DNA of 64,000 nucleotides. It comes from Hypomyces perniciosus (taxonomy: Eukaryota > Ascomycota > Sordariomycetes > Hypocreales > Hypocreaceae). The notes under the pieces were generated by a model. The model ran no database searches and was not told the DNA's origin. It worked only from the letters and a program-made list of their open reading frames with translations. Numbering within the stretch: the stretch's first letter is position 1; each line of letters begins with the position of its first letter. A program made the position numbers and the translations under genes. Shown piece by piece: positions 38,719 through 62,347 of this stretch. Location of the stretch: positions 1,550,001 through 1,614,000 of the forward strand of contig SPDT01000002.1 of NCBI GenBank assembly GCA_008477525.1. The letters are read 5' to 3'.

Positions 38719-38980
38719 TATCAAAGACCCTCTTTAGGGCAGACAGATCGGGCAAGGGGCTGCGACCCTAAGGAAGAGTAGAGGAGGTTAAAGAGCAATC
38801 ACTTAAAGGAGAAATAAGCGCTAATAAGCAGGTAATAAGCCAGAAACTAATAGTTAAATATAACAGTAATAATTTACTAGTTTTTAAAGTTCTATATCTT
38901 TAAAAACTATAATTACGTTTATATATATATTCTAGCCTATATAATATTATAAAAGCTTTAAAGCTTTTAGTCTTTTAATA
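38719..38980 (-). repeat. Family B LTR (3' LTR of B2)
   Basis: 262 bp. The left + strand end has mutated from TGTCAGAGACC to TATCAAAGACC and the right end from CTAACA to TTAATA. Its left half is still GC-rich, its right half strongly mutated. Confidence 0.85.
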
Positions 38981-41900
38981 GGCTGCCCCTCCTTTTATAG
39001 TATTAACCTTAATATTAATAAAGACTTTATATTTAATTAATTTTTTTCTGGCTTTTAATACCCTATTATTATATTAAATAATAACTATTTCCTATATAAA
39101 TACTTCTTTAAGCTTTAAACTTCAATACTTTAATATTTATTTAATAGCTTAAAAAGTTTTTAACTTTATAGTTTAAAAGTATACTTTTATATAATTAAAC
39201 TTAAAAGGTAATAGAGAAATTTTATATAATAAATTAACCTTTTACTATTAATATATAAATAATTTACGTTATTTTTCTTTTTTTAATTTATTACTATATA
39301 TAAATATATTATATATATTTTTACTTTACTTTTTTTTTATTTAGAACTTTAAACTTTTTTTTTCTTTTTTTCTTTTTTTCTCTTTATAGTTACTTTTTCT
39401 ATAAATATTCCCTCTTTTTACTTTTTATTATTAATTAACCTATTATATAATAACAGTTTTTTTCTTTTAGTTTAGCCTATTATTATAAATTTTCTTTTTC
39501 CTTTTATAATAAATATTACTGCTTTATAAGTTTTCTATAATTCATTCTAATACTATAACTTTCTATTTAATATATTTATAGCCTAGTTTTAAAAAATAAT
39601 AATAATTTTATAGTATTTAAAAACCTTAATATAATAAGTTTATCTTTATTTATAGCTAGTATTATTTTAATTATATCTCTATTAAAATACCTTCCTTTTA
39701 AAATTACTATACCTTTATTAGTAAAGCGCTATAAAGCTGCTAATAATTTAGTTAAATAAATATTTTAATATAAATATAATTATTAGCTATTATTAATTTA
39801 TTATAAATACTCTACTTTATACTATCATTATTTTAACCTTTTAATTAAATAAAATATACAGTTAAAAAAAATTACTTTAATACTATGATAATAAATATAA
39901 ATTTTATATCATTAAAAAGTAAAACTTTTTATATTAATTTATATTATATTAACTGCTTTGAAGAAATATTTTTATTATTTTTTAAATAATAAATTATATA
40001 ATTTAATTACCTATTAATTTATTAATATTATTAAAGTATTAGTTTAATATTTTTAAAAGTTCTTTATTAATAAAACAAATATTTTAATATTACTTTTTTA
40101 TTATATAATAGCAGTTAATAAAAACCAAATTTATAATAGTATTACTATAAATTTAATATGAAAAGAAATTTATATTAATATAATAAAAGTTAAACCTAAT
40201 TAAGAAGTAGAAAAAGAAAAAGTTTATAGTAAATAAATAATATTACTCTTAAAACTTAAAACGGTTAAACCTTTAAATTACTTTTAATTAAATAAACTTT
40301 TTTACTATTATTACTATTATTATATACTTTTATTCTAGTATATATTTTTTTATTTATACTAGGCAGTTTTTACTTAATTATTATATAATGCATTAATATA
40401 TTAAAATTCCTATATTTCCTTAAATATATCCTACTAGTATAAAAGATTATAATAAAGTATTATTTAAAAATAAAGAGAATTAACTATTATTTAATAGTAA
40501 TATTATTATTTATTTACTATAAAATATATTATTATAAGTTTATTTTTTATTTTTAATTAATTAATTAAAACTATATAGTACCCTACTTTTTTAACTTTAT
40601 AATATTTAATAGTAATAGTTAATTATTTATTAATAAATTATTATTTATATTTTTAAATTAATTTAATATTAATAAAATTACTTTTGTTTTATTAAATATT
40701 ATTAATCTTTAAATAATCTTTTTATTTAATTAAATATAAATATTATATCCCTTTATATTTATAATTAATAATTCTTTTAACTTTAAATATCTCTGTAATA
40801 CTAAAAAGGTAATTTATTAATTTAAAAAGTTTTCCTTTACAGCTATAATCTAGCTTAAAATTTATAATATTAAAGATATTATAAACTGTAATAAAAAATA
40901 AAAAATAAATTTAATATATTAATTTATTTATTTTAATTTAGTATTTAATTTCGTAAAGATTAATATACTTTTTAATACGTTTTTTACTAGGTTATTCGAG
41001 TTTTAAATATTTTGTTAAAAAATAATATTTAATTACTTATCGTAAATTTCTTTTTAAATTAATAAATATTATATTACTTTTATTATTCTTTTCAACGTTA
41101 TGATAAAGTTTATTTAATTGTTTTATGAATAGCTTAAAGCTTTTTTACCTTTATAATAGTATTAATATAATATTTATAATAAATTAATTTTTTATAATTT
41201 AAAGTATTAAACTTATATTTAAATAATAAAAAAGCTAATAAATCGCTATTCATAAAATATTTAATACTACTATATATAAATTAAATAAAAAATAGTTTTT
41301 ATATTAAATTATTTTAGTATTTATTATAAAAAAATATAAATAATACTTTAAAGCTTAATTTTACTATTTAAGTTATATATTAGTTTATCAATAAAAAGTA
41401 ATATTAAATTGCTATTTATAAATAAATAAAAAATAAAAACTTTGTTAAAATATAGATTTAAATAATTAATCTCTATTAAAGATAATTCTTTATAGTATTT
41501 TAAAAATTAAATAAATATATTTTATAAAGAAGTTAATAATTTTACTATTTATAATAGATATTATTATAGGTATATATAAAGTATATTTTATATATTAATT
41601 AATAATAATAAACATTATATTATATAAGTATTTGCCTTTAAAATTTAAGATTTTTAGTAAATCTATAATAAAATCTATAACGTTTCTTTAAAAAGTCTTT
41701 TTAATATTAATAATAAAATAAATTTACTATAAAGTTAATAGGTTTTCGCTTTAATTGTCTAGTAAATATAATATATAAATATATAGCGTTTAATATCTTG
41801 CTTTATACTCTATTAATAATAGATTAATATAATATATTTTAAAATATAATTAACTTTTTAATATTTAATAGTTAAATTATTATAAAATAGCATTAAAATC

Positions 41901-42484
41901 TTAATATAAAATCTTATTTATATATAAACTTTACTTTAATAGTAAATTAATTAATTATTATTAATAACTTAATTATTACTATAAAATATATTAATTAGTC
42001 TTTAACTTTAAACATTCTATTAAATAAAATAATATTTTTATTAAACTTATAAAATAATTAAATATAAAAACTTTTATAGTTTTAGCAGTAAACCTATAAT
42101 AGTCTACGATATAATATATTAACTAGTAATTATAACTTTAGCTATTATACTTTATAAGTAAATTATTTGCTAAATAGTATTTAATCTTTATCCTTTACTT
42201 TAAAGGCCTATTAAAGCAATACTTGTATTTATAAGTAACTTTATATATTTTTAATTATTATAGTATACTATTATAAATCTTTTTAATTTGTATAAGCTAT
42301 TAGCTTTTATACTATCAAAATACTATATAATTATTAATATATAGCTTTACTGTAATTCTTTAATTTTAATAAAATTATAAAAATCAAAGTATTAAAATAA
42401 AGTATTAGTAAAGTTAAATTTCCTTAGCTTATATTTAATCTAAAAATTAAATAAAGCTAGTTTATTAAAAGCCTTTATTTACTA
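38719..42484 (-). mobile_element. Family B Gypsy element copy B2, truncated, heavily RIP-mutated
   Basis: Begins with a 262-bp B-type LTR (38719-38980) and continues as a co-linear copy of B1 from 3007 to about 6560. It is more strongly mutated than B1: nearly every difference turns a B1 C or G into T or A, and the GC-rich remnants still readable in B1, including the chromodomain WKDY, are gone here. It stops abruptly at 42484. The 5' half, including the reverse transcriptase and 5' LTR, is absent, and there is no target duplication because the other end is missing. Confidence 0.85.
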
Positions 42485-42916
42485 CCTTAAACAATGAGAC
42501 GACGAGTTTACTGCCCGTTCTGGTGGCTTCTGCCGTCCAAGGTAGTGGTCGTTTTGCCAGGAATCCAGCGCCGCTTTAAGGCCAGCAATCAGTCCTGTCG
42601 GCCCAGTTGACCCCTCCTGTGCCACCATGTACCCAACAGGTACCGCATTTATACCCCGCTAATACCCAGGCAGCTCCATGGTCAACACGAGGATAGAGCT
42701 CAAATGTGCGCGCTTCCGGAAACCTCTTTTCGCTGACCCCAGCGACGAGGGCCAACAAACCACCAGAAATGGCGGCATCACGCAGGTTGTACTTAAGGGT
42801 CGCTCGCTCTGCCTCGAGCTTGTCCATCCCTCTCTTCCAACTTGTGTTTTCTCCCACTGCCATACCCACCTATAGAGTGCATCGTCCTCTTCCATAAGCC
42901 CCGGAGGACTTCAACT
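42485..42916. other. GC-balanced leader between the RIP boundary and the DUF3435 gene
   Basis: Non-coding as far as I can tell; the short open frames here lack coding character. The composition change at 42484/42485 is abrupt, from almost pure A/T to balanced sequence. TTAC-N7-A spans the junction (42479-42490). It may hold the promoter of the gene starting at 42917; no TATA box at a good distance is obvious. Confidence 0.4.
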
Positions 42917-45377
42917 ATGGCGCACCGAAAGCGCCGTTTCGACAACCCGTACGATTCAGATGCATCATATTCGCCTGATGAGGAAGACGATGACGACGTC
43001 TTCAGCCAGAGCCAGGCCAATATCTCGGGCCCGGAAACAGAGGCAACGGACGTTGAGCACCTATGCTTCAACGGCGGAGACAGTGATGTCGACGTCGATG
43101 TCGAAGGTCAAGCCCAACTCTTCGGCGGCAATGTCCATCCACCTGCGTATTACCGGCAGGCCATTGAAGAATTTAACGAGAATGCCTACGAAACACAAGA
43201 CTACAGTGACAGCAGCCTGCTGCTCCTAGATGCATGTGAAGAGCAATGGCGCCAGTACGCAGCTTGCCATATAGTTTCCCTTTTCTTTGCTAGTCACTAA
43301 TACGTGTATCTCTCTGAGCTCCAGCTACTGCAATGTTCTGAGGCGCGACCCTCAAGAATGCTTCGAGTCCATCTCCAAGTCCAGCTCTCTGACGCTGCTG
43401 TACAACTTCTTCAACTGGTTACTGAACCAGAAGGTTGGCAAAGATGGCAGGAGGAAGCGAGGAACTAAAAAGAGCAGCTCCTTGAGTACATATTGGAAGG
43501 TCTTCAGGCTCGTCTTCGAGAGGGCTACAGGCAACAAACTCGACCCAAAGATGACTCGGCGTATGCATAAAGTATGACCAATCCTAACCATCACTGGGGC
43601 GCAAGGTTAACCATGCAGGTGCTCCGAGACCTGGCCAAGAAACACGAGTTGAGCGACCAGAAGCGAGCAAATCGTTGCATGACGATCGAAGACTTGAAGG
43701 AACAAATCGAGACAACGATTAGCACAACAGAGAAGTCGTTCAAACTTGGGGAACTCCGAATTCTCGCAGTTCTCTTTCTGTTGCTGCTCGCTCCAGCAGG
43801 AGCTCGTCCCACATCCATCCTACGCATCCGATTTGGAGATATTCAACTTTCGTTGGCAAGAGATCCAGAAGGCGGGCCTCATAAAATCTTGATTCGGTTC
43901 ACCCTGGCCTTCACAAAGACATATCTCGGAGTCAAAGACGCGTATGGACCCGGGGGGCACCTATGGTTGACTCAACAGCGCTGATGTTGTATTAGGAAAA
44001 CTTTCACACTCCCTGAGACTCTGGTTGACCCGTCTCTGCTACTCAACCCACATGTTTTTTTATTGGGTATTCTGTTTCGCCACCGTGCGTTTCAAGCGCC
44101 AAGTCTTATCTCGCCGGAACACCTAGTCAACCTTGACATCCACCCAGGCGAGTCGGAACTGCTGTTGCCACTAAGGGATGATTTGGACCGCATATACATA
44201 TTCCGTCGAGCTGTTCAGACACTTACCGGGTATGAGCTATCTCAGGAAGAGCATATTTCCTACCAGATGATTGCACAGTGGATCAGAAGGATTGGCGAAA
44301 TTTTGGGGTTGGAGTACCCTACTATTCCCTATAACTTGCGCTATAACGCGGCCAACGAGTTCGATCGAAGTGGTCTGTCTGGTCTATCCTTTTTGTTTAG
44401 TCATTTTGCTCACTCTGAATCTAGCCGATATCAGCGAGTCGCTGAGAAATCTTGCGCTAGATCATGCTAACTCGAATCCCTTCCAGCGGCACTATCTAGG
44501 ACGAGAGGTTTGCGCAGATACATGGGCCATCGTTCGACGACAAAAACCGCAGCAGGCACTAATTAGGCAGGCCTGCAGCGTCGGCCATTCGAAAAGCAAA
44601 CGGCGGCCCACGGGCCTTACAGCTGAGCAAGCAGCATCTGTCAATACTGATCCTCTGATCAAGCGATTAGAGCGAGACCTTCGGGGCTTTCCTCAAGGGT
44701 CGGAGAAATACGTCAACGCTCGCCGCGAGCTGAGAAATCAGAAGCAGAGGCTGAAGAGGGTACTGATGCGGGAGATCCGAGAGAAATGGACCCCCAAGCA
44801 GGCAGTTGAAGACATTGAGCAACAATTGCAAGGGACGAAATTCACCAAGCAGGCAGCTGCAAACATATCCTGCAACCCTCGACGACCAGCTCAAAGACGG
44901 CTCGTTGAAGCACTCACAGCCCCACTTGGCGATACACTAGAAGACCAGTATCGGCGGAGAGACAACGCTATTAACTCCGTTGCTACATATTGCTTGATAG
45001 AGGAAGGGAAGATCACTCATCACCTGAAATCTCCATCGACTAAGTCAATCAAGCACCCCCCTGTCGACGAACTTCCAGTCAAAAGCCCTCTATATACAGC
45101 GCTGATATCTATTTTTGTCAAGAACGAGAAGGAAAGACCGAGAATTTGCTTCATATGTGTTGGTAAGGCACTCACCTTGGCACCCGATGACGGAGCTGCT
45201 GGGGATCTCATCCACGAGTTCTATACTCCGGGTGACTTGTCCAAGCACTTCCGACGCAAACACTTATCTAACTTGCGGGATGGCGACGAGGTCAAGTGCC
45301 AGGTTTGTGACTTGCGCCTTGACAACAGGGAACACTTTCAGAACCATGCCCTCCGAGTGCACGGAATCGTTAGTTAA
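42917..45377 (+). CDS. DUF3435 / C2H2 protein with a tyrosine-recombinase signature
   Basis: Five exons (42917-43254, 43325-43571, 43619-43941, 43996-44372, 44425-45377) separated by introns of 70, 47, 54 and 52 bp with GTACGC, GTATGA, GTATGG and GTCTGT donors. They sum to 2238 nt, a 745-aa protein with no internal stop. An acidic N-terminus (DDDDV) is followed by a core with FNWLLNQKVGK and TYWKVFRLVFERATG, then LLLAPAGARPTS (Arg258), YNLRYNAAN (Arg418), LDHANS (His442) and RHYL (Tyr452). This is the R..R..H..Y order of tyrosine recombinases. The C-terminus has a C2H2 finger (Cys720, Cys723, His736, His741) and a second finger-like unit ending HFRRKH. DUF3435 proteins include the captains of Starship elements, although many members, often with C2H2 fingers, have no proven role. 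The frame is fully intact next to heavily RIP-mutated DNA, so it arrived or duplicated recently or escaped RIP. The ATG at 42917 opens MAHRKRRF after in-frame non-conserved sequence. Confidence 0.82.
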
Positions 45378-45971
45378 GCTACGAAGTCCTATCACAAAGA
45401 AACGTGTATATTCGAATCCATGCGTCATCTTTTTCAGCAATAATTGTTCCCTTTTCCAAAATTCGGCCTATCACGCCGATTTTTATTTTATTAGGTAGTT
45501 GGGAGCCTTGTTGCAGTTTCTCATTATTTGATTCGGCTGCATGTGCGGAGCATGGAGGAATAGAATCTAGAGTTGGAGCTAGTACTACCTTTAGCCAATT
45601 AAGCAACTATGTCTCTCCTAGGGTCTCTGTCCACTTATTTGGATGTCGTATTCCTTGAATGTCGGGATGGGTTACCTCTTGTCGGAGATAGCTGCATTAT
45701 GCTAATCAGTGCAATAACTTCTGAATGATGCGATAAACTTCCGTTGTGCAAGGTTGATGTGCCAAAGATACTTCACCGGCTAGGCTAGGGGATCTCCCAC
45801 CCGGGAAATAGTGTGGTTTCGTCGGAAAAAGTTACTCCGTTTCCGCTGGCAGAAAACGCTTGGCAGCATGCACAGTGGCCATTGCACTGTATTCTGCCGG
45901 CAGTAAACGCTTGATTTACGTTCCTGGTTGTTTATTTCTGCCTATTTCGATACAGAAAGTAGACAACACAC
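45378..45971. other. Spacer after the DUF3435 gene
   Basis: No recognised domain in any frame. It may include the 3' UTR of the DUF3435 gene. No repeat identified. Confidence 0.4.
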
Positions 45972-46134
45972 CGAAAAGAGATGCTCCAATGCACGGAAAC
46001 ACAGAGAGGCAACATCTCCTTCTACTTAGGAGGAGAAGTCGCCGTCAGATAACGACAAATGGACACCAAATCTAGAGGCAGTGCGAGGGACAATCCGGTT
46101 CGCGATGGCCACCGGCCGACTGGATGCAAATTAA
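45972..46134 (+). pseudogene. LINE (family F) C-terminal coding fragment
   Basis: The plus strand reads EMLQCTETQRGNISFYLGG and, after a frameshift, a tail ending ATGRLDAN then stop. This matches the last residues of the LINE ORF at 53690-55375. It is 5'-truncated, frameshifted and directly followed by a fragment of the other LINE family. Confidence 0.7.
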
Positions 46135-46189
46135 CGGCGGGGATGAACCCACACCTCTAACCCACTTTACAGCCGACCCAACCCGGCCA

Positions 46190-46419
46190 CTTTGTTGAGG
46201 CGAGGCTTTCCAGAAGCTAGTGGAGGGGGCGAACCCGTATGGGCCCTCTACTCCGTACAAGTAGAATGAGAAAACATACATAAATTTCCTTTGTCCAGCG
46301 AAACGTAGCGAACAGAGGTCTAATCCCCTGGCTCCTACAGACGTATTGCCCATACGAGGCTTTTGTATGTAGATACATAGCGGTCGTAAATAGCAATTTA
46401 AAAAAAAAAGAAAAAAAAA
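46190..46419 (+). mobile_element. LINE (family E) 3' end with poly(A) tail
   Basis: Begins inside the final coding stretch (EAFQKLVEGANPYGPS), runs through the same 3' UTR as the copy at 48264-48683 (shared CCTTTGTCCAGCGAAACG) and ends in an A-tract at 46399-46419 interrupted by one G. A severely 5'-truncated insertion abutting the family F fragment. Confidence 0.75.
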
Positions 46420-47039
46420 GGTTGCGCCATTAGACTGAAGCATGGGCCAGCTGTTTCGACATCCTAACTATGTCAAGGCGATTGGAAAATTGTCCTGACC
46501 TGGCCAGCTCGAGATGAATCTGCAGGGGTTGGCGCAGAGACCAACCGCTTCCCCCACATCCCACCAGGAAAAAAAAACCCTAGTTTTAGACGAATGTTGT
46601 GCCTGAATAGAAGGGCTGAAGATGAAACGAGGGTCACCTACCTCCAGTTTGAGTGCATTCTTAGGATATTACGGAGTACATGTCCAACAGCTGCTCGTCA
46701 AGTAATCCGCCAATGACAGGACACTGGCTCGGCTATATCTCGGGCGATTATTGTCTCAGTATGATGTAATACGTATATCTGGTGGCCACTTACCGCAAGA
46801 GCTATTCATTCACTTGACATTCACCCTCGAGGCGCTCCAGGTTTTCAACATCCACACACAGCGGGAGTCCGAAAATTTTTATGAGCTAATTTGAATAGGA
46901 ATCCGACTGAAAAATTCCCCTTGTTGACGACCAAATGCCGACTTCCAAAGCGCATGAGGATGGCCTGCGCAGTGAGGCTATCATCTCAGCCATTAAAATG
47001 TAGGCTACGTTGTCCAGCGCCTAAATAGGTCGTGGGAGT
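46420..47039. other. Spacer
   Basis: No credible gene. One TACGGAGTA motif at 46670-46678. The rest is unremarkable. Confidence 0.4.
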
Positions 47040-47662
47040 AACTCATTCTGGCGCAGGTCTTTCAACAGCGAAACCCACGCAGACGTCAGGATTAATCTTG
47101 GCGGGAATGAACTTCCGGCACATGGCATCGTGCTTTCGGCTCAGAGTAGATATTTTGAGAGGCCTTAGGATCCCAGATGAAAGAAGGTGCCATGAGGAAA
47201 TTCGAGTACAATGAGGGAAGCATGCAAGCATACTGGAGGGCATTCGAGTACATGTACACTGGGACATACTCGGATCAGCTCGCAATAACTCTGGGCTCGA
47301 CAGGTACGTACTGAAGAGAATAACAGAACTCGACGGCTAACTCGGCTTTTCTAGACGACGATGAACTTTCAAAAGATGTTCGCGTTTACCAGATAGCTGA
47401 TTATTTTGAAATTGAGAGCCTGAAGGATTATGCCTTGCGGAATTTCCAGTCAAAAATCCAGAGGCTCTGGGTTAGTGAGACCTTTGTTGACTGTATACGA
47501 GATGTGTACCAGTCTACGAGCGACTCCAGCTGCAAAATGAGGAAGGCTGTTATCAGTACTACGCGCAGCCATTTGAGTGAGCTGTGGCAGAAGAACCCAT
47601 TTCGTGAGCTTATCCGTGAAGGGGGCGACTTCGTAGTGGACTTGATGGGCGAGCTGGTATGA
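47040..47662 (+). pseudogene. BTB/POZ-domain gene, frameshifted
   Basis: The plus strand reads a BTB/POZ start (HADVRINLGGNELPAHGIVL, then SAQSRYFE), breaks at 47159-47163 where one base appears to be missing (GAGAGGCC for an expected GAGAAGGCC), and resumes one frame over with LGSQMKEG, FEYNEGSMQAYWRAFEYMYTG. An intron at 47304-47354 (GTACGT..CTAG, 51 bp) leads to DDDELSKDVRVYQIADYFEI, ending at 47662. The order matches fungal BTB proteins, which often act as Cul3 adaptors or have no known role. The upstream frame is closed by a stop, so the N-terminus is also lost or lies in an unseen exon. A sequencing error at the frameshift cannot be excluded. Confidence 0.72.
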
Positions 47663-47898
47663 TTAATAATAAGTTGCTCAAGTATTATCCGGAAATGCAC
47701 TGAGTGGCATGTGATTGGGCAGTATGGTGCGATTCACTCCGCAATGCAGCAAAACTGAGTTTCGAAAAACGAGCTAGTTTGAGAACTGCGCTTTTGTTAG
47801 CATTGCGAAGCATGCCAGCACAGAAGACCCGATTGACTCCATTATGAAAGCATAACCGGCCCGCAGTGTTAAGGTATCTCTGCATTACTCCAGCTTCG

Positions 47899-48263
47899 TC
47901 ACGCCCGCCCAGTAGTGCTACAGCGTCTGATACGATGAAATTGACACAAACAATTGTGACTGCGACCTTGTTCGCAGCTTTCCAATAAACCCTTCACTGC
48001 ACGAGCAGAGTCTTGATGCAAAACGTGCTGTTCTGACTGTGGAGCTGCACGAATGATCTCTTCAAATGGTCTAATTGGTCTGCGAGCCCGAACTGATACC
48101 CCCCAGGCGAGATGCGATCCTTTTCCATCAATTTCATTGAAGAGTTCCCATTGGAGATCCACATTTGCATATCCATTAGGCGAGGATACGCGCATAAGAT
48201 AAAGCATACCAGTAACTTCTGGGGCCTGGGAGCACCTGCAAATCTCCCGGAACTGAAACTCCC
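47899..48263 (-). pseudogene. Possible 3' remnant of the gene interrupted by the LINE
   Basis: A minus-strand frame (MLYLMRVSSPNGYANVDLQW, then ELFNEIDGKG) ends at 47899. It lies on the same strand as, and directly beyond, the LINE that cuts the gene at 48684-49459, so it may be that gene's displaced 3' part. No domain recognised and the link is only positional. Confidence 0.25.
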
Positions 48264-48683
48264 CTGACCCATCTTACACAGGCTGCTGGCAGAAAGGTCT
48301 GGTCACGGAGACTTCCAAAGCTACCACGACCGTTTTGGCCACGACACGCAATCCCATTGCAGATGTGGCTCCCCCAAGGAGCCGGGGCACTTTACCGAAT
48401 GCCGCATGACGAGGAGCTTCCTCCCCGAAACACCGAGAGGCGAGAGACCAGTCACATACCTACTAGGACCCAAGGGGAGCGAGGCTTTCCAGAAGCTGGT
48501 GGAGGAGGTGAACCCATACGGCCCCCCTCTACAAGACATAGATTGAGAACACACCAGAACTTTCCTTTGTCCAGCGAAACGTAGCGAACAGGGTCTAGAC
48601 CCCTGGCTCCTACCGACCTGTTGCCCAAACGAGGCTGTTGTACCTAGATACAGAGTGGTCGTAAATAGTATTAAAAAAAAAAA
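48264..48683 (+). mobile_element. LINE (family E) 3' end with poly(A), interrupting a gene
   Basis: The plus strand reads LHRLLAERSGHGDFQSYHDR, then a zinc-binding CRCGSPKEPGHFTEC, and ends SEAFQKLVEE..PPLQDID-stop: the C-terminal end of a LINE reverse transcriptase/RNase H protein. The 3' UTR ends in an 11-A tract at 48673-48683. It is 5'-truncated and little mutated. It abuts the broken minus-strand gene at 48684. No target duplication is obvious, so the insertion may have been accompanied by a deletion. Confidence 0.82.
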
Positions 48684-49459
48684 TTTACACGAGCGCACCG
48701 TCTCCATCAGAGTACTCTCCGCCTCTGTTGGGTAGTCTGCACAAAATCTATCGAATTCCTTCGTACGATAGAACAGCATTTTATCGACGCCGGCTTTTCG
48801 CATATCAGACAGAACCCTCCATAATCTGTGGCAATAACGCTGACTTGTGTAGCTAGTTCCAATACCGGCTTCAACCATGAACCTCTCAGTCGCAACTTTC
48901 TCAGCCATGGTGAAGTCAACTAGACGTCCCTTCATTGGCGGCAACTTTGCTGGATCAAGAAGGCTGGCGCCGTTTTTGATGATGTCCCAGTATATTGCTT
49001 CATTATACCGGGCTTGATATCTTTGCTCGCCGTAATCGAATTCTCCTTCTTCAGTATACGCACCGCAGCATCATATTCAGATCCTGCAATCTTCTCTGCA
49101 AGACTTCGAATCTTCTCGATCTTGGATCTCACCTCGACATATTTGTCCTTGTCGTTCTCTTTGCCACGCGCATCATTGAGTTTCACACAGTCCAGCAATA
49201 TGGTTTCTATTACCTTCATGGCACAAGCAGAGTCTAGCATATTTTGCAGTAACCTTAGCTGGGGATGAAGTAAGGTACTGCGGTTGACATTGCTGTTTGA
49301 GCTAAGAATAGCCTGAATAACGCTCCTGGATTCTGTAGGATGGCTTTCAGGCGGGTATGTATCACTCGCAGCGAATGGCGCCAACGCAGAGGCCTGTTGC
49401 AGACCCGCCTCAGGCACCACAAAGCCAGTGACGGTCGCCGGTGCGATGACATTGCTCAC
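48684..49459 (-). pseudogene. Unknown gene broken by a frameshift and by a LINE insertion
   Basis: Minus strand from 49459: a low-complexity start, then RSVIQAILSS, LRLLQNMLDSACAMKVIETI, YVEVRSKIEKIRSLAEKI, SEYDAAVRILKKE. Around 49040-49052 the coherent reading moves one frame over (GEFDYGEQRYQARYNEAIYW, DIIKNGASLLDPAKLPPMK) and continues as FMVEAGIGTSYTSQRYCHRL and RTKEFDRFCADYPTEAEST to 48690, where LINE poly(A) takes over. I do not recognise the family. The helical, Lys/Glu-rich segment looks like a coiled coil. No good ATG is seen at 49459, so an upstream exon is likely (see 49800-50040). Confidence 0.6.
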
Positions 49460-49799
49460 CGTTCGGTCCTAGGCGGTAGTTTGATCGAGTATGTTCGTGC
49501 AACTGTTTAACTCGTCAACAATCGCGGGATAGTTGGAGGATCAGGCGCCTTCACGCCTGTTCTACATTTTTTTATCTTTGCTTGCTTTCTTCTGAGGCGA
49601 CCCATCCAGCCCTGAATAATCTACCAGATCTCGTTTCAATCTGTACGATCCTCATATTACGTTCGCACATATCTGAGTAGTCGGCCCAGCACTCTGTAAG
49701 AGATAGGCAGGTGGATCTTTTTTCCCAGCATTGAGTCGAGTCTCATGGACTTGAATGTGTGTTAGCATTCCGTAGGGCCCTCTCTGGTCGTGTTGTATA

Positions 49800-50040
49800 C
49801 GTACCAAATTTAGAAATGCCGAGTATATACGGACTTATTGGCTCATGACTGTGATCGCCAATCTCGCAGAGTGCTAACAGCTCTCGGATTTTCTGTGACG
49901 TCAAAGACTGGATTGCTTCCATGGCTCTGGTGTGCGATGCATTAGTACTTTCCTGACGAGCATACAAACTTATATCTGCCTGGCAGATTGCAGAGTCTTC
50001 CAAGCGCCAAAGTGACGAGATGAGTTGGCGGCATTGTACG
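49800..50040 (-). pseudogene. Possible upstream exon of the broken gene
   Basis: The minus strand reads QLISSLWRLEDSAICQADIS, LYARQESTNASHTRAMEAIQ, SLTSQKIRELLALCEIG and meets a good donor (GTACGT) at about 49803, which suggests a real exon rather than chance. A stop lies just upstream and no ATG is in frame. It sits 340 bp upstream of the broken gene on the same strand and could be its first surviving exon. Function unknown. Confidence 0.35.
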
Positions 50041-50487
50041 CTCCACTTTCATAACCACTAGACCTAAAATAGCAACCACAACACATCACACTACACCATC
50101 ACTTAGGAAAATGGCTGAGCGTTCAATATGAATACTCATCAGCTTTCCAGCATTACATATATATAATATTGTGGCGATTTGAAGCATAAGGGAGCTAACA
50201 CAAACGCGTTGCTACTTGCTGTTCTTGGATGGTTGTATATGGCTCCCAATGCGGTGGAGCAAACAAGCCATCATGCTTGGTATAAGTCGGTCTTGCCTTA
50301 AATAGCGTTTTCGAGCTGCTTCAATGATAGTAATGAAATTTCTAGGACTTCCCTTCAAGATTCAACATAAGTTTTACACGGTCTTTTGCCTTTCAAGGAA
50401 CTAATCTTGACGGCGCGTCGTTGTGATACATCACAACCTCTCTTTGCTCCAACGGTGGGTGAGGTACATACGGTGTACTATAGGAAA
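50041..50487. other. Spacer
   Basis: No supported gene or repeat. Confidence 0.35.
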
Positions 50488-50612
50488 TGTTACAATACAA
50501 TACAATACAATTTATTAACGCCCGGCGGCTAACCTGAAAGGGCAACTTTAGCTAATGTGCATGTGTGTTTCTCAAGTTTGTCATATCTCCCAAAAGCCCA
50601 TGCGGTATTTTA
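50488..50612 (-). mobile_element. LINE (family F) 3' UTR fragment
   Basis: About 125 bp nearly identical to the 3' UTR of the LINE at 53349-55373: (ATTGT)n tail on the minus strand, then CGCCCGGCGGCTAA and CCCAAAAGCCCATGCGGTAT. A severely 5'-truncated insertion. Confidence 0.75.
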
Positions 50613-51388
50613 TGGGCTATAATACTGTCTGCTACCCTTGCAAGTAATTATATCGGGGTTGACTGACTGGCGAGCGAATTGCGCAAGTGTTGCTTTATTC
50701 AGCTTGTCTATAGTTGTTAGGGTACATACATAGTAGTGGAGGTTGTTGCTTTGTGGAATAGCGTGAATGCTATGCGTGAGAGAAGGAGGTAGTGGCCATG
50801 GTGAAGGCAGTTTAATAATGTACCAAGATCGGCTCTAGATTGGCTCTTATTACATACTCTGAAGGTCAAGAAATGGGCATTGTCCATTTTTTGACCATTG
50901 TGGGCCACTAATCGTTCCATTTCATGAGCAACTACAGGGTCAACCGAAACGAGTGTCCGCCTGTTTTGGTTCAGAAAATTAGTTAGAGCACAGACTAAAT
51001 GTGCCACATGTGGCTTTTACCGTGCCTCTACTCCGTACTGTGGTCCATATGTACTCACTAAGCCAGAAGTGATCCCTAGGTAGCTTATTGTTCTTTTCGT
51101 TCCTGTTTTTTTCGCGAGGCAATCTTTGAATTCTTTATAATACCACAACTAGGATCGGCTATTGTAAATGACACTAATAGCACGGCAGCTACATCCATAG
51201 TGACCGCAAGTTGTATGTGTGTGCTTTATGTATATGTACTCCGTATCCCGTGCATAACTGGTATGTACTCCGTACACTGAATACTTTTACATAACAGCTA
51301 TGTCGTAAGAAGACTACCGTGTCAATTAGTAAGCATATATTTAACCATTAAATTCTCTGTCCCTTCACTTTATACTTTGCTTGAATGT
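50613..51388. other. Spacer with repeated TACTCCGTA motifs
   Basis: A 96-codon minus-strand frame (50717-51007) has no recognisable domain and I do not call it. TACTCCGTA occurs at 51029-51037, 51237-51245 and 51266-51274. Confidence 0.4.
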
Positions 51389-51860
51389 TTCCCAGGACAG
51401 TATAGATTCCCAGGACAGTATAGATTCCCAGGACAGTATAGATTCCCAGAACAGTATAGATTCCCAGGACAGTATAGATTCCCAGGACAGTATAGATTCC
51501 CAGAACAGTATAGATTCCCAGGACAGTGGAATTTCCCAGGACAGTATAGTTTCCCAGGACAGTGGCATTTCCCAGGACAGTGGAATTTCCCAGGACAGTG
51601 GAATTTCCCAGGACAGTATAATTTCCTAGGACAGTGGCATTTCCCAGGACAGTATAGTTTCCCAGAACAGTATAGTTTCCCAGGACAGTATAGTTTCCCA
51701 GGACAGTGGCATTTCCCAGGACAGTATAATTTCCTAGGACAGTGGCATTTCCCAGGACGGTATAGTTTCCCAGGACAGTGGAATTTCCCAGAACGGTATA
51801 TTTTCCCAGGACAGTATAATTTCCTAGGATAATACAGTTTCCTGGGACAGCACGATTTCT
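51389..51860. repeat. 18-bp minisatellite, about 26 units
   Basis: Tandem array of TTCCCAGGACAG plus a variable hexamer core (TATAGA, TGGAAT, TATAGT, TGGCAT, TATAAT types), 18 bp per unit. Because 18 is a multiple of three, two plus frames (FPGQYR-like and SQDSID-like) and one minus frame (SWESIL-like) stay open across much of the array. Unit types are ordered: the left third is almost all TATAGAT units; the right two-thirds mixes the others, with a two-unit block (TATAAT then TGGCAT) recurring near 51618 and 51723. Units decay at the right end. No evidence of expression. Confidence 0.9.
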
Positions 51861-52036
51861 TAAGAAAGTGCTCTATTACGCCCCAACTATATGTATATAA
51901 AAAAAGCGCTACATATGAGAGGAGCTGAGCGTTTAATATCTTCCAAGTCGCACCATTCGAATCTTCCGCGGTTCCAGATCAGCGCAAGTTGACCCAGCCA
52001 AGTTGCTATCGACATGACCTCGATCCGCAAACGAAT

Positions 52037-52471
52037 ATGCCGAACCCTGAAGACTACACTATTGGGTGGATCTGCGCCATCAGCACAGAGCGCGCCGCAG
52101 AAGCCTTTCTTGACGAAGAGCACGATCCACCCGAATATCTCTCTCCCCATAACAATAATGATTATGCACTGGGCAAGATTGGGAAACACAACGTCGTTAT
52201 TGCCGTATTGCCTGACGGCGATTATAGAATAGCTTCCGCAGCCAGTGTCGCAAGGGACATGCCGCCTACCTTTCCTAATATTAGGATCGGTCAGATAGTG
52301 GGCATCGGCGGTAGTGTGCCAAGCATTAAGCACGATATCCGTTTTGGCGACATTGTTGTTAGTGCTTCTCGCGATGGGGAGGGTGGCGTGTTCTTGTCGG
52401 ATAACGTCGATCTAGTTGTTGGAATAAGCAAAAATGGGTATGCAAGGGAACGCGCGGCGTTCTGTTTCTAG
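52037..52471 (+). pseudogene. Nucleoside-phosphorylase head of an NLR-type protein, truncated
   Basis: From ATG 52037 the frame reads MPNPEDYTIGWICAISTERA, LGKIGKHNVVIAVLPDG, RIGQIVGIGGSVPSIKHDIR, FGDIVVSASRDGEGGVF, the typical start of fungal PNP_UDP domains found at the N-terminus of NACHT/NB-ARC NLR proteins and related with self/non-self recognition and programmed cell death. After GGVF the sequence leaves the family pattern and stops at 52471, about 145 aa, with no NACHT domain following. It is a truncated gene or an isolated first exon. A C-terminal NLR-type WD40 fragment on the opposite strand lies 3 kb away. Confidence 0.72.
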
Positions 52472-52826
52472 GATAAAATGGCTGGAAGAGAATCCAATGA
52501 AGATGGGAGGACCGGAGAGCAGAACAGAGAATATGGAGCAATTGAGTGGAATTCTGGCGCCCGATCTTCATGATGTGAACAAGCTGACTACGTAACTAGA
52601 TTTTCCAACAATAGCCTTGCCAAAGTCTCCCCTTTTGTCACATCCTGGCTTGGGACATTTCATTGGCTTGGTGTGTTTCCTTTTGTGACAACTTTTTGTT
52701 GGAGTTAGCCGTAGTGTGGATGACTGCGATAAGGAAATTAAGGAAAGGGACGGAGAGGTTAGGGAGTAGGTATATCACCACAAGCTGGGAAACAGGGACC
52801 ATACGGATGACCAACTTGAGTAGGTG
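52472..52826. other. Spacer
   Basis: No continuation of the NLR frame found and no other feature supported. Confidence 0.35.
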
Positions 52827-53168
52827 CTAAGCCCGAAAAACACGACCACAGCCTATTTCATCACATGGAAATTCTCTCGCCTCTGACTGAGATTTAAGGG
52901 AGGGTTTGTTATTCCCCGGTTGTTCGGGTTGGCCCATGCTGCGGGAGGGCCCAGTCAGATCTGAGCTAGTGAATTGATGATCCCCGAAAGAATCAGGAAT
53001 AAGAGCATCAAAAGAGAGCGAAGCAGAATATGGAGAAGCAGAAGGAGAAGGATCATCAGGTGATATAGAATAATGATTGTCCTGGCCATCTAAATTGTAT
53101 GTAAAACGCTTTTCGGTATCTTGAAAGGTAAGCCACTTCAGGCTCTTCTGCTCGAAAAGGTGGGCCTA
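52827..53168 (-). pseudogene. C2H2 zinc-finger gene fragment
   Basis: An open minus-strand frame without an ATG at its start begins right after a CTAG, which could be a splice acceptor, and reads FEQKSLKWLTFQDTEKRF, a Ser/Pro-rich stretch (SISPDDPSPSASPYSASL), then FPCDEIGCGRVFRA. The stop TAG at 52829-52827 falls where the family has the residue before HLLK, and HLLK follows it, so a C-x4-C finger is cut by a nonsense change. This looks like the tail of a transcription-factor-like gene. No full gene could be assembled. Confidence 0.45.
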
Positions 53169-53348
53169 GTATGCGGGAGGCCCAGGACGATTGTTAGTGT
53201 TTGGCCTTGGTGGAAGTACTAGGGGTCTCAAGTTCGGCCATACCCTTGCCCACTTCGCTAGGACACGGGGGCCGCGTGAGTAGGAAATTTTGCGGTTGAC
53301 TGGGAAAAGAAGTTAGGTACTTTATTGCTAGTGTAGATAGATAGTACA

Positions 53349-55373
53349 ATACAATACAATTTATTAACGCCCGGCGGCTAAGCCGAAAGGGCAACTCTAG
53401 CTAGTGTACATTTGTGTTTCTCAAGTTTGTCGTATCTCCCAAAAGCCCATGCGGTATCCTTCTCCTATTTATCATGTCTTGCAAGCCTTTTATCTTTCTA
53501 CGTGTTCTCGTGATTTAGTGATATTATATTATTAGCAAGCCAGCTTGGAGGCGATTCTACAAGTGTTCAGTGTCCTATCTTCGGCGACTGAAGCGTTGCC
53601 TGCCGTTCGTGCCACGAGGTGGTGAGTGTGGTTTGGGTCGGCTGTATAGTGTGTTAGTGGGTTTAGAGGTGCGGGTTCATCTCCCGCGATCAATTTGCAT
53701 CTAGTCGGCCTGTGGCTATTGCGAACCGGATTGTCGCTCGCACTGCTTCTAGGTTTGGCGTCCATTTGTCGTCATCTGATGCCGACCTTCCTCCCAAGTA
53801 TAAGGAGATATTGCCTCTTTGCGTTTCTGTACATTGGAGCATCTCTGTTCGGTACGATGTCCACTTTCTGCATCGGAACAGGAAGTGGTCAACCGTCTCT
53901 CTTTCATATCCGCATTCGCACAGATCTGACGGTACTGCGTTGATTCGAGAGAGATACGAGTTCAATCTTATCATGCCTGTCCTGAGTTGGGAAAACACGC
54001 CAGATTCAATCCGCGACAGGCTATCGTAGAGTATTCGAGTGTGCTTTCCCGGTAGTGCTTTATCTATTCTCTTGGAGTACTTTCCGACGTTTTCCGGAAA
54101 ACACCTGTCTTTTCGCTGTTGTGACCGTGCTAAGTTGAGTGTTGTTGACTGCATTCTAGGAAACTGAAGTTGCTGGGTGGCATACTGTTGGGTGGCCTGC
54201 CGCGCCTGCTCTTTAGCTCGTTGAAGCAGTTCGTTTTCTTCGCTTGTAGGGATCAATAGGACTGTCACTGTGTTCCCGTTCTTCCGCAACTCTTTAATCG
54301 AGTCGTAGATACATCGGACATATTCTTGTCCCGACTGTTGGTGCGGTTGTTTGAGCGTGAGCACGGCTGCTTTGTTGCTTGTCAACAGCGCAATGTTCCA
54401 GTGTCTAGCCCTTGGTATGTGTCGTCTTAGAGCGTATGCTATCGCTGCTAGTTCTCCACTGTAAGGGTTCTGTTCCGTTCTCTTGCCTAGTGTGAAGGAG
54501 AAGGTCTCGGTCTTCGGGCCGCCGCGTACGGATACCGGAATTTGGATTGCCCCGCCAACCCCCACTATTTCGTTCCGCGCCGAGCTGCTGACTGCCACGC
54601 GGATGGCCCAGTCTTTATCTGCCTTGGCTGCTGCCGTTTCATCTGCGATAGCATGTATACGTTCTTCCCACGGTGCTAATGTGAATGGATTAATCGTCTC
54701 TAGCTTTTCCATCTCTATATCCTTGAGCGCTATTGTCACTTGGTAAAGCGGCGACCGGTGGGATCTCCTGAAGGCCCGGATGCGAGAGGTTATTCGACGG
54801 AGGGGGTTGGTTTCGGGCAATGTGTGGATATCCGTCCACATTTTGATCGCCTTCCTCCATAACCGTTCTTGTACGGGGACGATATAAGCCTCCGCTTCCG
54901 CCACGCTCGTCGCTACCTTAAGGAACGTCCCGACGATAGCCTGTGCACCTACCCTTTGGACCCGGTTAATAGGCCCCGCGGCTTTGTCCTTGACTGCGTG
55001 CATCCATACATTGGAAGCGTAGTCCACCGCTGGGGCCACGGTAGCTGTGAACAGTTGCCGTGCCGTGGAGGGGGATATATTCCTTAGACGTTTCAGCTCC
55101 ATCGCGGCCCGTAGGCCCTTGGAGGCTGCTTCCGCAATATGCTCCTTGTACTTAAGTTCAGAGTCCATAATCACTCCTAGGACCTTGACGCTCTCTTTCG
55201 GCTCGACAATCCGTCCTTCAATAGTGAAGGGTTCCGAGTCGCTTTTGTACTTTTTCCGGGTAAAGTGTATAATAGCCGTCTTGTTTACTTCAAAAGTTGC
55301 ACCGCTTCTCTTTTCCCACTCTAGGGCGTCCTTGATGATTGCTTCGATGCCCTCGCGGTTGCTTTGAGCTGTC
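53349..55373 (-). mobile_element. LINE (family F), 5'-truncated, with 12-bp target duplication
   Basis: A non-LTR retrotransposon copy of about 2 kb. The target ATAGATAGTACA occurs at both sides (53337-53348 and 55374-55385). The minus-strand 3' end has a (ATTGT)n tail and a 3' UTR shared with 50488-50612. The 5' break lies within the reverse-transcriptase domain. Low divergence and absence of RIP point to a younger age than families A-D. Confidence 0.9.
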
Positions 55374-55375
55374 AT
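53690..55375 (-). CDS. LINE ORF2 C-terminal part: RT end, RNase H-like, zinc motif
   Basis: An open frame of 561 codons with no true start; the first Met spans the truncation point. In order: end of the reverse transcriptase with its thumb (NKTAIIHFTRK, VKVLGVIMDSELKYKEHI, RLRNISPSTARQLFTATVAP, YASNVW); an RNase H-like region (VGVGGAIQIP, SGELAAIAYALR, LLTSNKAAVLTLKQPHQQSG); then the zinc-binding end CECGYERETVDHFLFRC, finishing ATGRLDAN. Where RNase H usually has its first Asp the sequence reads VAVSSSARN, and LLTSNKAA lacks another Asp, so RNase H activity is doubtful. The upstream reverse-transcriptase active site and endonuclease are missing: a dead-on-arrival copy. Confidence 0.85.
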   Translation of the reverse strand: MTAQSNREGIEAIIKDALEWEKRSGATFEVNKTAIIHFTRKKYKSDSEPFTIEGRIVEPKESVKVLGVIMDSELKYKEHIAEAASKGLRAAMELKRLRNISPSTARQLFTATVAPAVDYASNVWMHAVKDKAAGPINRVQRVGAQAIVGTFLKVATSVAEAEAYIVPVQERLWRKAIKMWTDIHTLPETNPLRRITSRIRAFRRSHRSPLYQVTIALKDIEMEKLETINPFTLAPWEERIHAIADETAAAKADKDWAIRVAVSSSARNEIVGVGGAIQIPVSVRGGPKTETFSFTLGKRTEQNPYSGELAAIAYALRRHIPRARHWNIALLTSNKAAVLTLKQPHQQSGQEYVRCIYDSIKELRKNGNTVTVLLIPTSEENELLQRAKEQARQATQQYATQQLQFPRMQSTTLNLARSQQRKDRCFPENVGKYSKRIDKALPGKHTRILYDSLSRIESGVFSQLRTGMIRLNSYLSRINAVPSDLCECGYERETVDHFLFRCRKWTSYRTEMLQCTETQRGNISLYLGGRSASDDDKWTPNLEAVRATIRFAIATGRLDAN

Positions 55376-55522
55376 AGATAGTACAGTAGAGACCGAAATC
55401 AGTGTCCGGCTTTTTTTTCTATTGAACCTCTTTCCGCACGGACCACATCGTGGGGCCTGTGGCTTATACAGTACGAATAAGAATATAGCGACAAGTACTA
55501 TTCATACGCCAGCCTAACGGTT

Positions 55523-55705
55523 TTAGTCCATTTTTGGCTGGATTTCACTTCTGGCTTCAGTTCTGCTCCAAACAGCTGATACATTTGGTCGATACTCTGG
55601 AGGCAACCAAACCAGAGGCTTACTATCTTTTATAATCCATGTCTTGTCAGAGCTTATGCCATAGTCATGAAAGTCCGTATCTCGTGATAAGACTTCTGGT
55701 GGCAT
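55523..55705 (-). pseudogene. C-terminal end of a WD40-type NLR protein
   Basis: A minus-strand frame of 60 codons reads DFHDYGISSDKTWIIKD then LVWLPPEYRPNVSAVWSR. The phrase LPPEYRP after a W-I segment is the usual last blade and tail of fungal NACHT-WD40 proteins. Everything upstream is missing. It lies 150 bp from the LINE, and together with 52037-52471 suggests the leftovers of NLR-type genes. Confidence 0.55.
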
Positions 55706-55799
55706 ATTTATAATAGACGCATTAATTCATAGGACCCATGATCGGTAATGAGACGCAAGTTATCCGTTGCATCGAATTCTAAGTATTGTATAGACTGAC

Positions 55800-55965
55800 T
55801 ACGAGTCAAAGCGGCGCCATCAGACCAATGCGCGTGCGGACAGACCAGAGAAACGGTAGAGCTCTTTCTCTTCAATACACGACAACGCAAAGAGGCAACA
55901 TATCTTTCTGCAGTCAAAGCAAGTATTAGATTCGCAATCGCCACCGGTCGTCTCGATCCGAATTA
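55800..55965 (+). pseudogene. LINE C-terminal coding fragment
   Basis: The plus strand reads DQCACGQTRETVELFLF, then VKASIRFAIATGRLDPN-stop, the zinc motif and tail of a LINE ORF2 related to family F. The 5' part and 3' UTR are missing or unrecognisable. Confidence 0.65.
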
Positions 55966-56268
55966 GGGAGCCATCGGACGACCCACATACCCACTCTCCT
56001 ACACCCACGTACCCTGAACATCTTCAACAGCAGGTTGTCGCTTCAGTTGCCTAGATAGGATGCTGAACACTTAAAAAATGGCCTTTGAGCAGGCCTGCTT
56101 CGTAGAACACGCCCGCGAGGATTTGTAGGAACAAACATGGGGCATAGTGAAGAGAGTAAAGATTGAAGGCGGAACCGCAAGGGCTTGAACGAGATCAAGA
56201 TCATGCTTAAGCAGGGTCATGTACTAAGCAAATAGTTGCCCTCCTGGCTTAGGCCATCGGGCGGAATA

Positions 56269-56271
<3 letters not shown>

Positions 56272-56300
<29 letters not shown>
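56272..56300. repeat. (TG)n microsatellite
   Basis: 29 bp of uninterrupted TG dinucleotides, in a 600-bp stretch (55966-56590) with no gene I can support. Confidence 0.9.
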
Positions 56301-56303
<3 letters not shown>

Positions 56304-56590
56304 ATAAAGATCTAACAACAATTCGGACCTTTCCAAATTGCTCCCTTCTTCACAACTATGTACCAATACTGAGTACTGTATGCAATACGTAAAATAGAGT
56401 CTCAATTGCTTTATATAAAATGTTGCCTACTACTGGAACACTCTATCGGATAGAGAATAAACGGATGTACCTAAGGACGGTTTTATACACTTTGCTCTAT
56501 TCTTCCACTGCTTCTTCTGCTACTATCCGAAATCCAAGATGGCCACCGCCTTAACCAGCCTCTGTATCCTGCCGAGAGTATACGACACAG

Positions 56591-59081: not shown

Positions 59082-59475
59082 GGCGATTGTGTGGCAGAGG
59101 AGTTGTACCGTGGTTTCTGATGGTGTAACTCAACAAGCGTCTCAGCTCTGGCTCCGGTGCAGTTACAGGTTCTGCTTCTTCTATGTAGCACTGGGGAGCG
59201 CTTGATCGGGGAGTGTTGACTGATTCATGAGGCCAAAAGGTGCGGCGGCTATTCGAACCATTAACATGCATTCAAGACATGCTTGGTAGGGGGTCTTGAC
59301 CCCGCCTGTTTGGCTCAATGTACCTATTTCGATGGCGAAGAAAATGTGGTTATGTAATCTCCATCCCACCACAAAAAATCGACGGCGCAAAACGTCTAGA
59401 ACTCCATAGTAGCTGCGAATTAGCTCATTCTTTCCCCCTTGCTTCTTCACTCACACTCTCTCTAATCTGATTCCC
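59082..59475. promoter_or_regulatory. Divergent promoter region
   Basis: The 394 bp between the start codons of the STAND/Tudor-like gene (-) and the SET-MYND gene (+). It must contain both promoters. A pyrimidine-rich stretch at 59430-59460 precedes the plus-strand start. No clear TATA box. Confidence 0.5.
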
Positions 59476-61012
59476 ATGGAAAACTGGCTGAAAGAATCCG
59501 GGGTGGCAGGCTTGGATGACCTGGAGCTTGCCGACTTCCCAGTCACCGGGCGCGGTGCTAGAACACTGCGGCGTTTCAAGCAAGGAGAAAGGATTCTCAC
59601 CATTCCAGGTGACAGCCTCTGGACAGTCGAACATGCATACGCCGATTCCCTTCTTGGGCCAGTCCTTCGCTCTACACAGCCGCCCTTGTCAGTCGAAGAC
59701 ACCTTAGCTATATATCTTCTCTTTGTGCGATCGCGCGAGTCTGGATACGATGGCCCGCGAAGCCATGTGGCGGCGTTACCCGCGAGGTACTCTTCAAGCA
59801 TCTTCTTTGCGGAGGATGAGTTGGAAGTTTGCGCTGGAACCTCACTCTATACCATCACGAAGCAACTGGATCAAAGGATCGAGGACGATTACAGGGGATT
59901 AGTCATGCGAGTGCTTGGACTGCATCCAGATCTTTTCCCACTCGACAAATTCACCATCAAAGACGTAGGTATTATACGCGTGTGATTAATGTTGCGAACC
60001 AACAACTAAAGCTTCTTTCCCTTCTTCTTAGTACAAGTGGGCGCTCTGCACCTTCTGGAGTCGTGCGATGGATTTCGTACTGCCAAATGGAAAATCGCTT
60101 CGAGTTTTGGCGCCCTTTGCAGATATGCTAAACCACTCGCCTGAGGTTAAGCAGTGTCATGCCTACGATCCCTTGTCTGGAAACCTCTCTGTCCTTGCGG
60201 GGAAGGACTACGAAGCCGGAGAACAGGTATGTTCACCTTGTTCCCTGGTGGTACCAACCTGTACGCTTACCTGGAGACTATTCTTCTAGATTTCTATATT
60301 CTACGGGTCCATTCCAAATAATCGCCTTTTACGTCTCTATGGCTTTGTCATACCCGATAACCCTAACGACAGCTATGATCTCGTTCTTTCAACGCACCCT
60401 ATGGCGCCTTTTTATGAGCAAAAGCAGAAACTCTGGGCATCGGCCGGACTCGATTCGACCTCTACCATCTCCCTTACTCTCACCGGTCCTCTACCGAAAA
60501 ATGTCCTTCGATACCTCCGTATTCAGCGATTGGATGAATCAGATCTCGCTGCCATCGCGCTTCAAAAACTCGATACAAATGAGAAAATCAGCGATTCGAA
60601 GGAAGTGGAAGTCTTGCAGTTCTTAGTAGAATCGATTGGTAGTCTTCTGGATAGCTTCGGGACTCAATTAGAAAAGCTACAAGAACAACTCGCGGAGGGC
60701 GTCTATCCTCTAGGAGGGAACGCATGGGCGGCGGCGCACGTTAGCCTGGGCGAACAGCGGGTGTTGAGACTGGCGAGAAAGAGAGCCGAGGATTTGCTAA
60801 CGGCGGTGGAGAGCGGGAGTGGGAGTGGGAGCGGTTTATCATCGCCGCCGGCTCGATGCGCAAATTGCGGAAAGGATTCTGTGCCGTTGATGCTGTGCGG
60901 GAGGTGTAAAGCGGTTATGTATTGCGGGCGGACGTGCCAAGTCGCTCATTACAAAGAGCACAAGGCAATATGTCGAGTTACAGCTTCTAAGAATTGTTCT
61001 GAGATGAAATGA
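59476..61012 (+). CDS. SET and MYND domain protein, predicted lysine methyltransferase
   Basis: Three exons: 59476-59964, 60032-60226, 60290-61012; introns of 67 and 63 bp, phase 0; 468 aa. The SET fold begins near residue 20 (VTGRGARTLRRFKQGERIL), is interrupted by a long insert as in SETD6/Rubisco-methyltransferase-type proteins, and resumes with LAPFADMLNHSPEV (Asn197-His198, cofactor pocket) and ISIFYGSIPNNRLLRLYGF (Tyr233 in the YG motif). A helical substrate-binding-like part follows. After a Gly-Ser repeat, residues 418-457 form a MYND zinc finger (CANCGK, LCGRCKAVMYCGRTCQ, HYKEHKAIC) with all expected Cys/His ligands. Such enzymes transfer methyl from S-adenosylmethionine to protein lysines; the target is unknown. 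A C-terminal MYND outside the SET domain differs from the SMYD family, where MYND sits inside SET. Confidence 0.9.
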
Positions 61013-62211: not shown

Positions 62212-62339
62212 ACCTTTTTACAAACGTGGTGAGGACGTGGCGCTTGCGCGGAGTATGCCTTGAGCATAAAAGAACCCCTCCAAAAGAGAAGAGAAAAGAG
62301 GGAACGGTTCTATTTGGTTGATGTGCTATGCCCATGGCC

Positions 62340-62347
62340 TTTATATA
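62340..62347 (-). promoter_or_regulatory. TATA box of the 211-aa gene
   Basis: TATATAAA on the minus strand, about 130 bp upstream of the ATG at 62211. Confidence 0.5.

Follow-up and report, generated by a model that had tools for sequence, protein, structure and literature searches.

A probable 83.6-kb Starship of Hypomyces perniciosus, the ends of its family, and target repeats whose halves lie apart

Introduction

In a 64,000-nucleotide stretch of the Hypomyces perniciosus genome (hereafter the window; GCA_008477525.1, contig SPDT01000002.1:1,550,001-1,614,000, forward strand, or C5:1550001-1614000 in the contig naming used here), AT-rich repeat DNA stops abruptly and a gene for a DUF3435 tyrosine recombinase follows shortly inward. 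The question raised by this locus is whether the break is the left end of a Starship, a giant element described as carrying its recombinase gene, the captain, at the 5' end, being bounded by short direct repeats and measuring about 15-700 kb (PMC12153272, with a range of about 20-700 kb, and PMC12134995; published systems are drawn on here and below through excerpts of the papers cited). A first-pass annotation of the window had proposed such a left end, with the right end beyond the window. By searching one assembly of 44.0 Mb in 23 contigs, we found nine left ends of the same family with differing flanks, as well as a right end 83.6 kb inward, and it is thus very probable that the sequence from window position 42483 onward is the left end of an 83.6-kb Starship (C5:1592483-1676122, 83,640 bp), of which the left 21.5 kb (42483..64000, + strand) lie in the window. 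The features found in common with Starships were an inward-reading captain at the 5' end with the catalytic residues and predicted fold of its class, TTAC at both ends, the size and cargo, and the occupation of multiple sites together with uninterrupted copies of the target repeat B.

Left junction and captain gene

The GC content per kb rose from 10-13% left of the junction to about 50% on its right, in agreement with the change of composition reported by the first-pass annotation. The indices of repeat-induced point mutation (RIP) flipped at the same place, with TpA/ApT being 1.42 in the left flank and 0.81 in the element and (CpA+TpG)/(ApC+GpT) being 0.40 and 1.23, respectively, indicating RIP mutation on the left side but not on the right. 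The left side is formed by B2 (38721..42478, + strand), a RIP-mutated, truncated long terminal repeat (LTR)-type repeat that represents the left half of the insertion target. The alignment of B2 (38721-42474) with the copy B1 (2747-6547; 82% identity) ended at the junction, while B1 and 15 other B copies read uninterrupted across the insertion site. Copies of two repeats, A2 and B2, had both been described as cut at 42484; B2 indeed stops at the junction, whereas A2 is already interrupted by B2 at 38719. Neither resumes before 64000, as had been stated, since no A or B match was found in 42485-64000. Loose BLAST searches with pieces of B1 and A1 returned mostly composition noise and were left unused, except for B1 meeting the junction. 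Between B2 and the element stands TTAC (42479..42482, + strand), the target core or direct repeat, which is also present at the element's own right end.

The captain is the first gene inside the end, reads inward, and starts 434 bp from it, close to the 430 bp given earlier. It encodes 744 aa in five exons (42917-43254, 43325-43571, 43619-43941, 43996-44369 and 44425-45377, + strand) separated by four GT..AG introns whose sites were placed by eye. The gene was intact, and PF11917 (DUF3435) matched residues 218-616 with E=1.3e-106. In an alignment of this protein with 41 proteins chosen from 141 relatives, R258, K295, R418, H441 and Y451 were invariant in all 42 rows; R258 and R418 had thus been correctly located before, whereas the former length of 745 aa and the residues H442 and Y452 had to be corrected by one. 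A close full-length homologue is predicted to fold like Cre, and for the catalytic part a sequence search of the PDB up to E=1 gave no relative. The C-terminal part (45147..45374, + strand) carries zinc-finger-like Cys/His pairs (C669, C672, C719, C722, H735 and H740) in columns that are invariant or nearly so, and its matches to solved zinc fingers were weak (best E=0.017).

Left ends of the family

The 20-base left terminus CTACCTTAAACAATGAGACG (42482..42501, + strand) was found exactly at seven places genome-wide, one of which, C3:2190597 on the minus strand, had no DUF3435 match. Two more places differed from it by three mismatches; C14:781111 proved to be a true, RIP-mutated end, and C10:1367108 was not supported. 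The first 438 bp of the element matched ten places, namely nine left ends and one 70% match over 125 bp. All nine left flanks were AT-rich, with 9-22% GC over the final 150 bp, and differed in sequence, and the bases preceding the element were TTAC in six, ATAC in two and CTAC in one. The own end, the C7 end and C3:2190597 all lie in repeat B, each cutting it at a different position, and the left flanks of C8:1155705 and C14 lie in the repeat of window 12868-18167, again with different cut positions. For the 3' part of the captain (44271-45377), six relatives of 94% identity, a seventh of 75% and an 84-bp fragment of 81% were found. Five of the six close ones resembled the own locus from window 42480 onward, give or take a few bases, and the 5' part was missing from the sixth (C3:4421501). 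The captain-side 3.5 kb diverged by 9-10% between the own copy and five sister copies. A solo, non-mobile DUF3435 gene lying beside an isochore edge, which would also place a recombinase gene next to a break in composition, is refuted by an edge that is identical to the base at seven places with differing flanks and by the existence of a matching right end, and we give it almost no chance.

Some left ends had peculiarities of their own. The captain-bearing end C8:4180181 is located about 6 kb from a TTAGGG telomere (contig end, 4186231), and this copy therefore appears to have been cut short by, or healed with, the telomere. At C3:2190597, the GC content fell again within about 2 kb inside the end; together with the missing DUF3435 match, this makes it look like a captain-less stub. 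C8:2074039-2112944 is an older family member, in which the captain part is 75% identical and contains many stop codons.

Right ends of the family

Inward from the left end, the GC content stayed at 38-55% per kb up to position 126120 of the extended window and then dropped to 11-20% for 3 kb. The right junction reads GTCTGAATTT, then TTAC, then TATTTATT; the terminus sequences are GTCTGAAYTT on the right and TACCTTAAAC on the left. The last 601 bp of the element had 18 matches in the genome including itself, 17 nearly whole and one, on C14, partial. All 18 right ends stopped at the same base and were followed by different flank sequences. TTTTAC was present at 17 of them, and the TTTTAT at C14 is as RIP would make it from TTTTAC. 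The right flanks were AT-rich in 17 of the 18 cases (5-31% GC), with C8:2755514 (45%) as the exception. No further ends of the family were listed inside the element in the end searches.

At least nine right ends had no detectable captain in cis. The PF11917 search gave no DUF3435 match on C9, though this contig carries two right ends, and none in the 900 kb of element-side sequence next to C5:2948630, C5:3513511, C5:3638200, C5:3704781, C22:4106403, C8:3023736 and C8:2755514. The search was six-frame and intron-unaware, and the captain counts are therefore lower bounds. The left ends belonging to these nine may have been lost by the same exchanges that are considered below, or their captains may be too decayed or too different to be detected. 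As a separate observation, C9 (1.36 Mb), with its two right ends and no DUF3435 match, contains many short repeats that also occur in the Starships, and could be an accessory chromosome.

Such an excess of right over left ends (18 versus 9), together with the several right ends that share only about the last 4.4 kb with the own element in the pieces searched, would be accommodated if 42483-126122 were two adjacent elements, the left part of a Starship and an unrelated owner of the right end. The TTAC core and the AT-rich targets are, however, common to both ends, and two other left ends, C8:1155705 and C8:2074039, are likewise followed by a family right end, 65 kb and 39 kb inward, respectively. 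Two adjacent elements are thus very improbable, and we proceed with a single Starship of 83.6 kb.

Target site and RIP

As judged by eye, T followed TTAC in 17 of the 18 right-hand target halves, and the target was therefore taken as TTAC(T); the sixth target base was A in ten of the 18. The first-pass annotation had named TTAC-N7-A as the target of at least one captain and placed it at 42479-42490. This pattern does span the junction and its TTAC is real, but the N7A portion lies inside the element, and the distal A occurred in only eight of the 18 right halves, again by eye, which is about the expectation for AT-rich DNA. TTAC(N7)A was accordingly rejected as the target rule. TTACT was about 7 times as dense in AT-rich DNA as in element DNA (9.7 versus 1.4 per kb; 144 kb analysed), so that base composition explains part of the target preference. 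Judging from these sequences, insertion is at TTAC(T) and almost always in RIP-mutated DNA.

At the B2 insertion site, where an uninterrupted B2 would read TTTACTAGTATAAAAG, relatives of B commonly read GCCTCTGCCTGCTAG, and B2 reads GCCTTTATTTAC and then ends. TTTACTAG with TTAC at the B2 position was found in one of 16 B copies (L046 only), and RIP-type changes are therefore able to make this target. Probably, the B2 site TTTACTAG was derived by RIP from CCTGCTAG, in which case these changes would have preceded the insertion.

Separated target halves and mosaic arms

The first-pass annotation had proposed to look rightward for the missing half of B2. A B half cut at exactly the B2 base does exist (82% to B1 6553-8590), but it adjoins the right end C9:1086473 instead of the own right end, whose flank is a different repeat, X, continuing from window 34932. 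The same was observed for two other left ends. The left half at C8:1155705 (repeat to window 18167) resumes on the other strand at the right end C8:995716, from 18166, the two halves sharing only TAC, and the left half at C7:1333860 (B to 4745) resumes beside the right end C3:162621, from 4747. The C7 pair may reflect a break between contigs, with C7 ending 49 kb past its left end and C3 beginning 163 kb before its right end. Three of the nine left ends thus had an exact mate among the 18 right ends, in no case the one that comes next inward on the same contig, and the flanks were mismatched in both collinear pairs checked (the own element and C8:1155705-1220545). It is unlikely that the target halves of these three exact mates match by chance, although B1 holds 119 TTAC sites on both strands and a strong site preference could raise the odds. 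Two further pairings led nowhere: the own right end found no partner, a break in repeat X at window 34932 being absent from all nine left flanks, and a test of the B2-C9 link by LTR target duplication was dropped because the C9 B piece ends, after 2.0 kb, before the second LTR.

The right arm of the element was found to be mosaic. C5:1644001-1676120 was 100% identical, as rounded, to C8:995716-1027854 in the pieces searched, except for a 3.4-kb inverted piece at 98%, whereas C5:1634001-1642000 was only 85-94% identical to C8:1029824-1039223. Identity thus steps sharply from 85-94% to 98-100% about 33 kb inside the element. C9 likewise had the last 16.2 kb in common with it at 99-100% (pieces searched) and then diverged. 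Near-identical sister arms combined with separated target halves point to either exchange between sister Starships or assembly switching, and switching within such arms would look the same as exchange.

In the scheme that we propose, the captain, as a Cre-like tyrosine recombinase, would bind both element ends and cut at the TTAC core, and the element would be excised, presumably as a circular intermediate, and re-inserted at TTAC(T) elsewhere, with RIP-mutated repeats as the usual landing sites; the lineage would accordingly have been active. After its spread, sister copies with near-identical right arms would swap arms or flanks, so that the two halves of a target repeat would come to lie at different places. 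We lean towards a real exchange of this kind, which would, from the sequence comparisons, explain both the mosaic and the separated halves. The main competitor, to which we grant an appreciable but smaller chance, is that the Starship is real and the crossed target halves and mosaic right arm are assembly switches, the true element extending between B2 and the B half on C9. In the pieces searched, an identity of 98-100% to the own right arm extends over 16 kb at C9, about 19 kb (with gaps) at C3:162621 and 32 kb at C8:995716, which is long enough to mislead an assembler. On the other hand, identity to the own right arm is only 93-98% at C8:1220545, compared with 98-100% at C8:995716, and the one piece searched of the C8:1155705 element (9.9 kb) had no near-identical partner and hence offered no obvious switch point. 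A near-identical inverted tract to explain the C8 pair was thus not found in that piece. The C8 pair is therefore harder to explain by assembly switching, as far as this single 9.9-kb piece goes.

Site-specific translocation, in which the captain joined the right ends of two Starships at TTAC and swapped everything beyond, would fit the swapped pieces starting at TTAC cores, the terminus and core common to the right ends, and the Cre-like fold predicted for the captain homologue. Homologous exchange in near-identical right arms gives the same result, however, and is favoured by the identity step about 33 kb inside the element, which leaves translocation by the captain improbable. More speculatively, the lineage could reshape the genome without moving, the captain or recombination in the shared right arms exchanging all that lies beyond the right end between sisters, right ends accumulating apart from captains, and RIP making TTAC insertion sites; we consider this broader proposal doubtful, though less so than translocation by the captain.

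Several points weigh against a Starship inserted and exchanged as proposed. The evidence comes from one genome. The two 100-bp ends of the element gave a best local match of 6 bp and no terminal inverted repeat beyond it; such repeats occur in 18 of 20 Starships of Aspergillus fumigatus (PMC12153272). Genes often carried by Starships include those for DUF3723, ferric reductase, patatin and NLRs, and none of the 23 genome matches to DUF3723 was inside the element. The imbalance of 9 left to 18 right ends is not predicted by a simple model. The own flanks are different repeats, B on the left and X on the right, and a clean two-sided test of a single insertion thus fails here. For the other six left ends, no mates were found in the sequence examined; as this comprised only about 300 bp of right flank at 17 of the 18 right ends, mates may have been missed. 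Finally, with so short a B piece on C9, the B2-C9 link rests on the exact cut base. Besides these points, the heptamer AGACGGC, which sister copies carry close to each end and which was considered as an inverted repeat, was within chance by estimate.

Comparison with known Starships

The element resembles Starships in general in its 5' captain, flanking direct repeats, size, cargo, and insertion into AT-rich DNA and transposons (PMC12153272, PMC12134995), the last being known already from a study that also raised captain swapping as a question (PMC12134995); unlike the Starships of these excerpts, the lineage is represented within a single genome by nine left ends and 18 right ends, and its target halves lie apart. 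With Hephaestus, whose target is TTAC(N7)A, it shares the TTAC core, but the distal A is no more frequent here than expected by chance, and T follows TTAC in nearly all right halves (PMC12153272). The target predicted for Janus of the Phoenix family in A. fumigatus, A(N3)TTACTA(N2)A(N15)CT, has the same TTACT core, and TTACTA(N2)A is likewise present in the B half on C9; in this comparison, which concerns targets only, the sixth base nevertheless differs in that A is present in just 10 of the 18 right halves (PMC12153272).

Starship regions of Verticillium are rearrangement hotspots, with chromosomal rearrangements breaking inside Starships, as is proposed here, whereas in the present genome both halves of single target repeats were identified to the base (PMC12289983). 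Exchange of cargo between Starships has been inferred earlier, along with mosaic elements and an AT-rich-targeting family (PMC11623301); the exchange proposed here differs in taking place between close sisters and including the right end and its flank. Icarus of Pyrenophora is a putative Starship without a captain (PMC9594970) and is comparable to the large element ends lacking a captain in cis, although the captain-less right ends in H. perniciosus come from a lineage that also has captain-bearing copies. In the open literature searched, as seen in excerpts, we found no prior report of target-repeat halves assigned to different Starships, and the term Starship did not appear in papers on insect-pathogen genera among the matches listed.

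A Starship lineage whose two ends are located to the base, and with this number of ends in one genome, is of use in that its RIP-mutated target repeats indicate which halves once belonged together. Within a single strain it thereby becomes testable in what way Starships give rise to translocations and inversions, and whether a right end that lacks a captain can still be moved by one located elsewhere.

Cargo and internal features

Of the 64 stop-to-stop frames of at least 140 aa, 20 were scanned for domains, one of them in part; three of the 64 are captain frames. The element encodes HET, AAA/BCS1, HSP20, PNP_UDP, IBR, MYND and DDE transposase domains, PNP_UDP being of the kind seen in NLRs. 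Within the window, a Rubisco-LSMT substrate-binding domain and a MYND finger were identified by Pfam at 60290..61012 (+ strand). Two frames on the minus strand had no Pfam match and were assigned by eye, namely a 561-aa open frame resembling the end of a long interspersed nuclear element (LINE) reverse transcriptase/RNase H (53690..55375) and a piece resembling the N-terminus of an NLR-type protein (58251..59081). A DUF3723 gene is located at C3:104179-105808, left of the right end C3:162621 and just outside the element-like part. Within the element, a 3.1-kb inverted duplication (99.5%; C5:1614087-1617217 and 1638224-1641354, or 64087-67217 and 88224-91354 of the extended window) carries a BCS1-like AAA ATPase frame. 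Lastly, an 18-base tandem array of about 26 copies is present in the left part of the element, at 51387-51850, and similar arrays were observed in the C4 and C8:1155705 sister copies.
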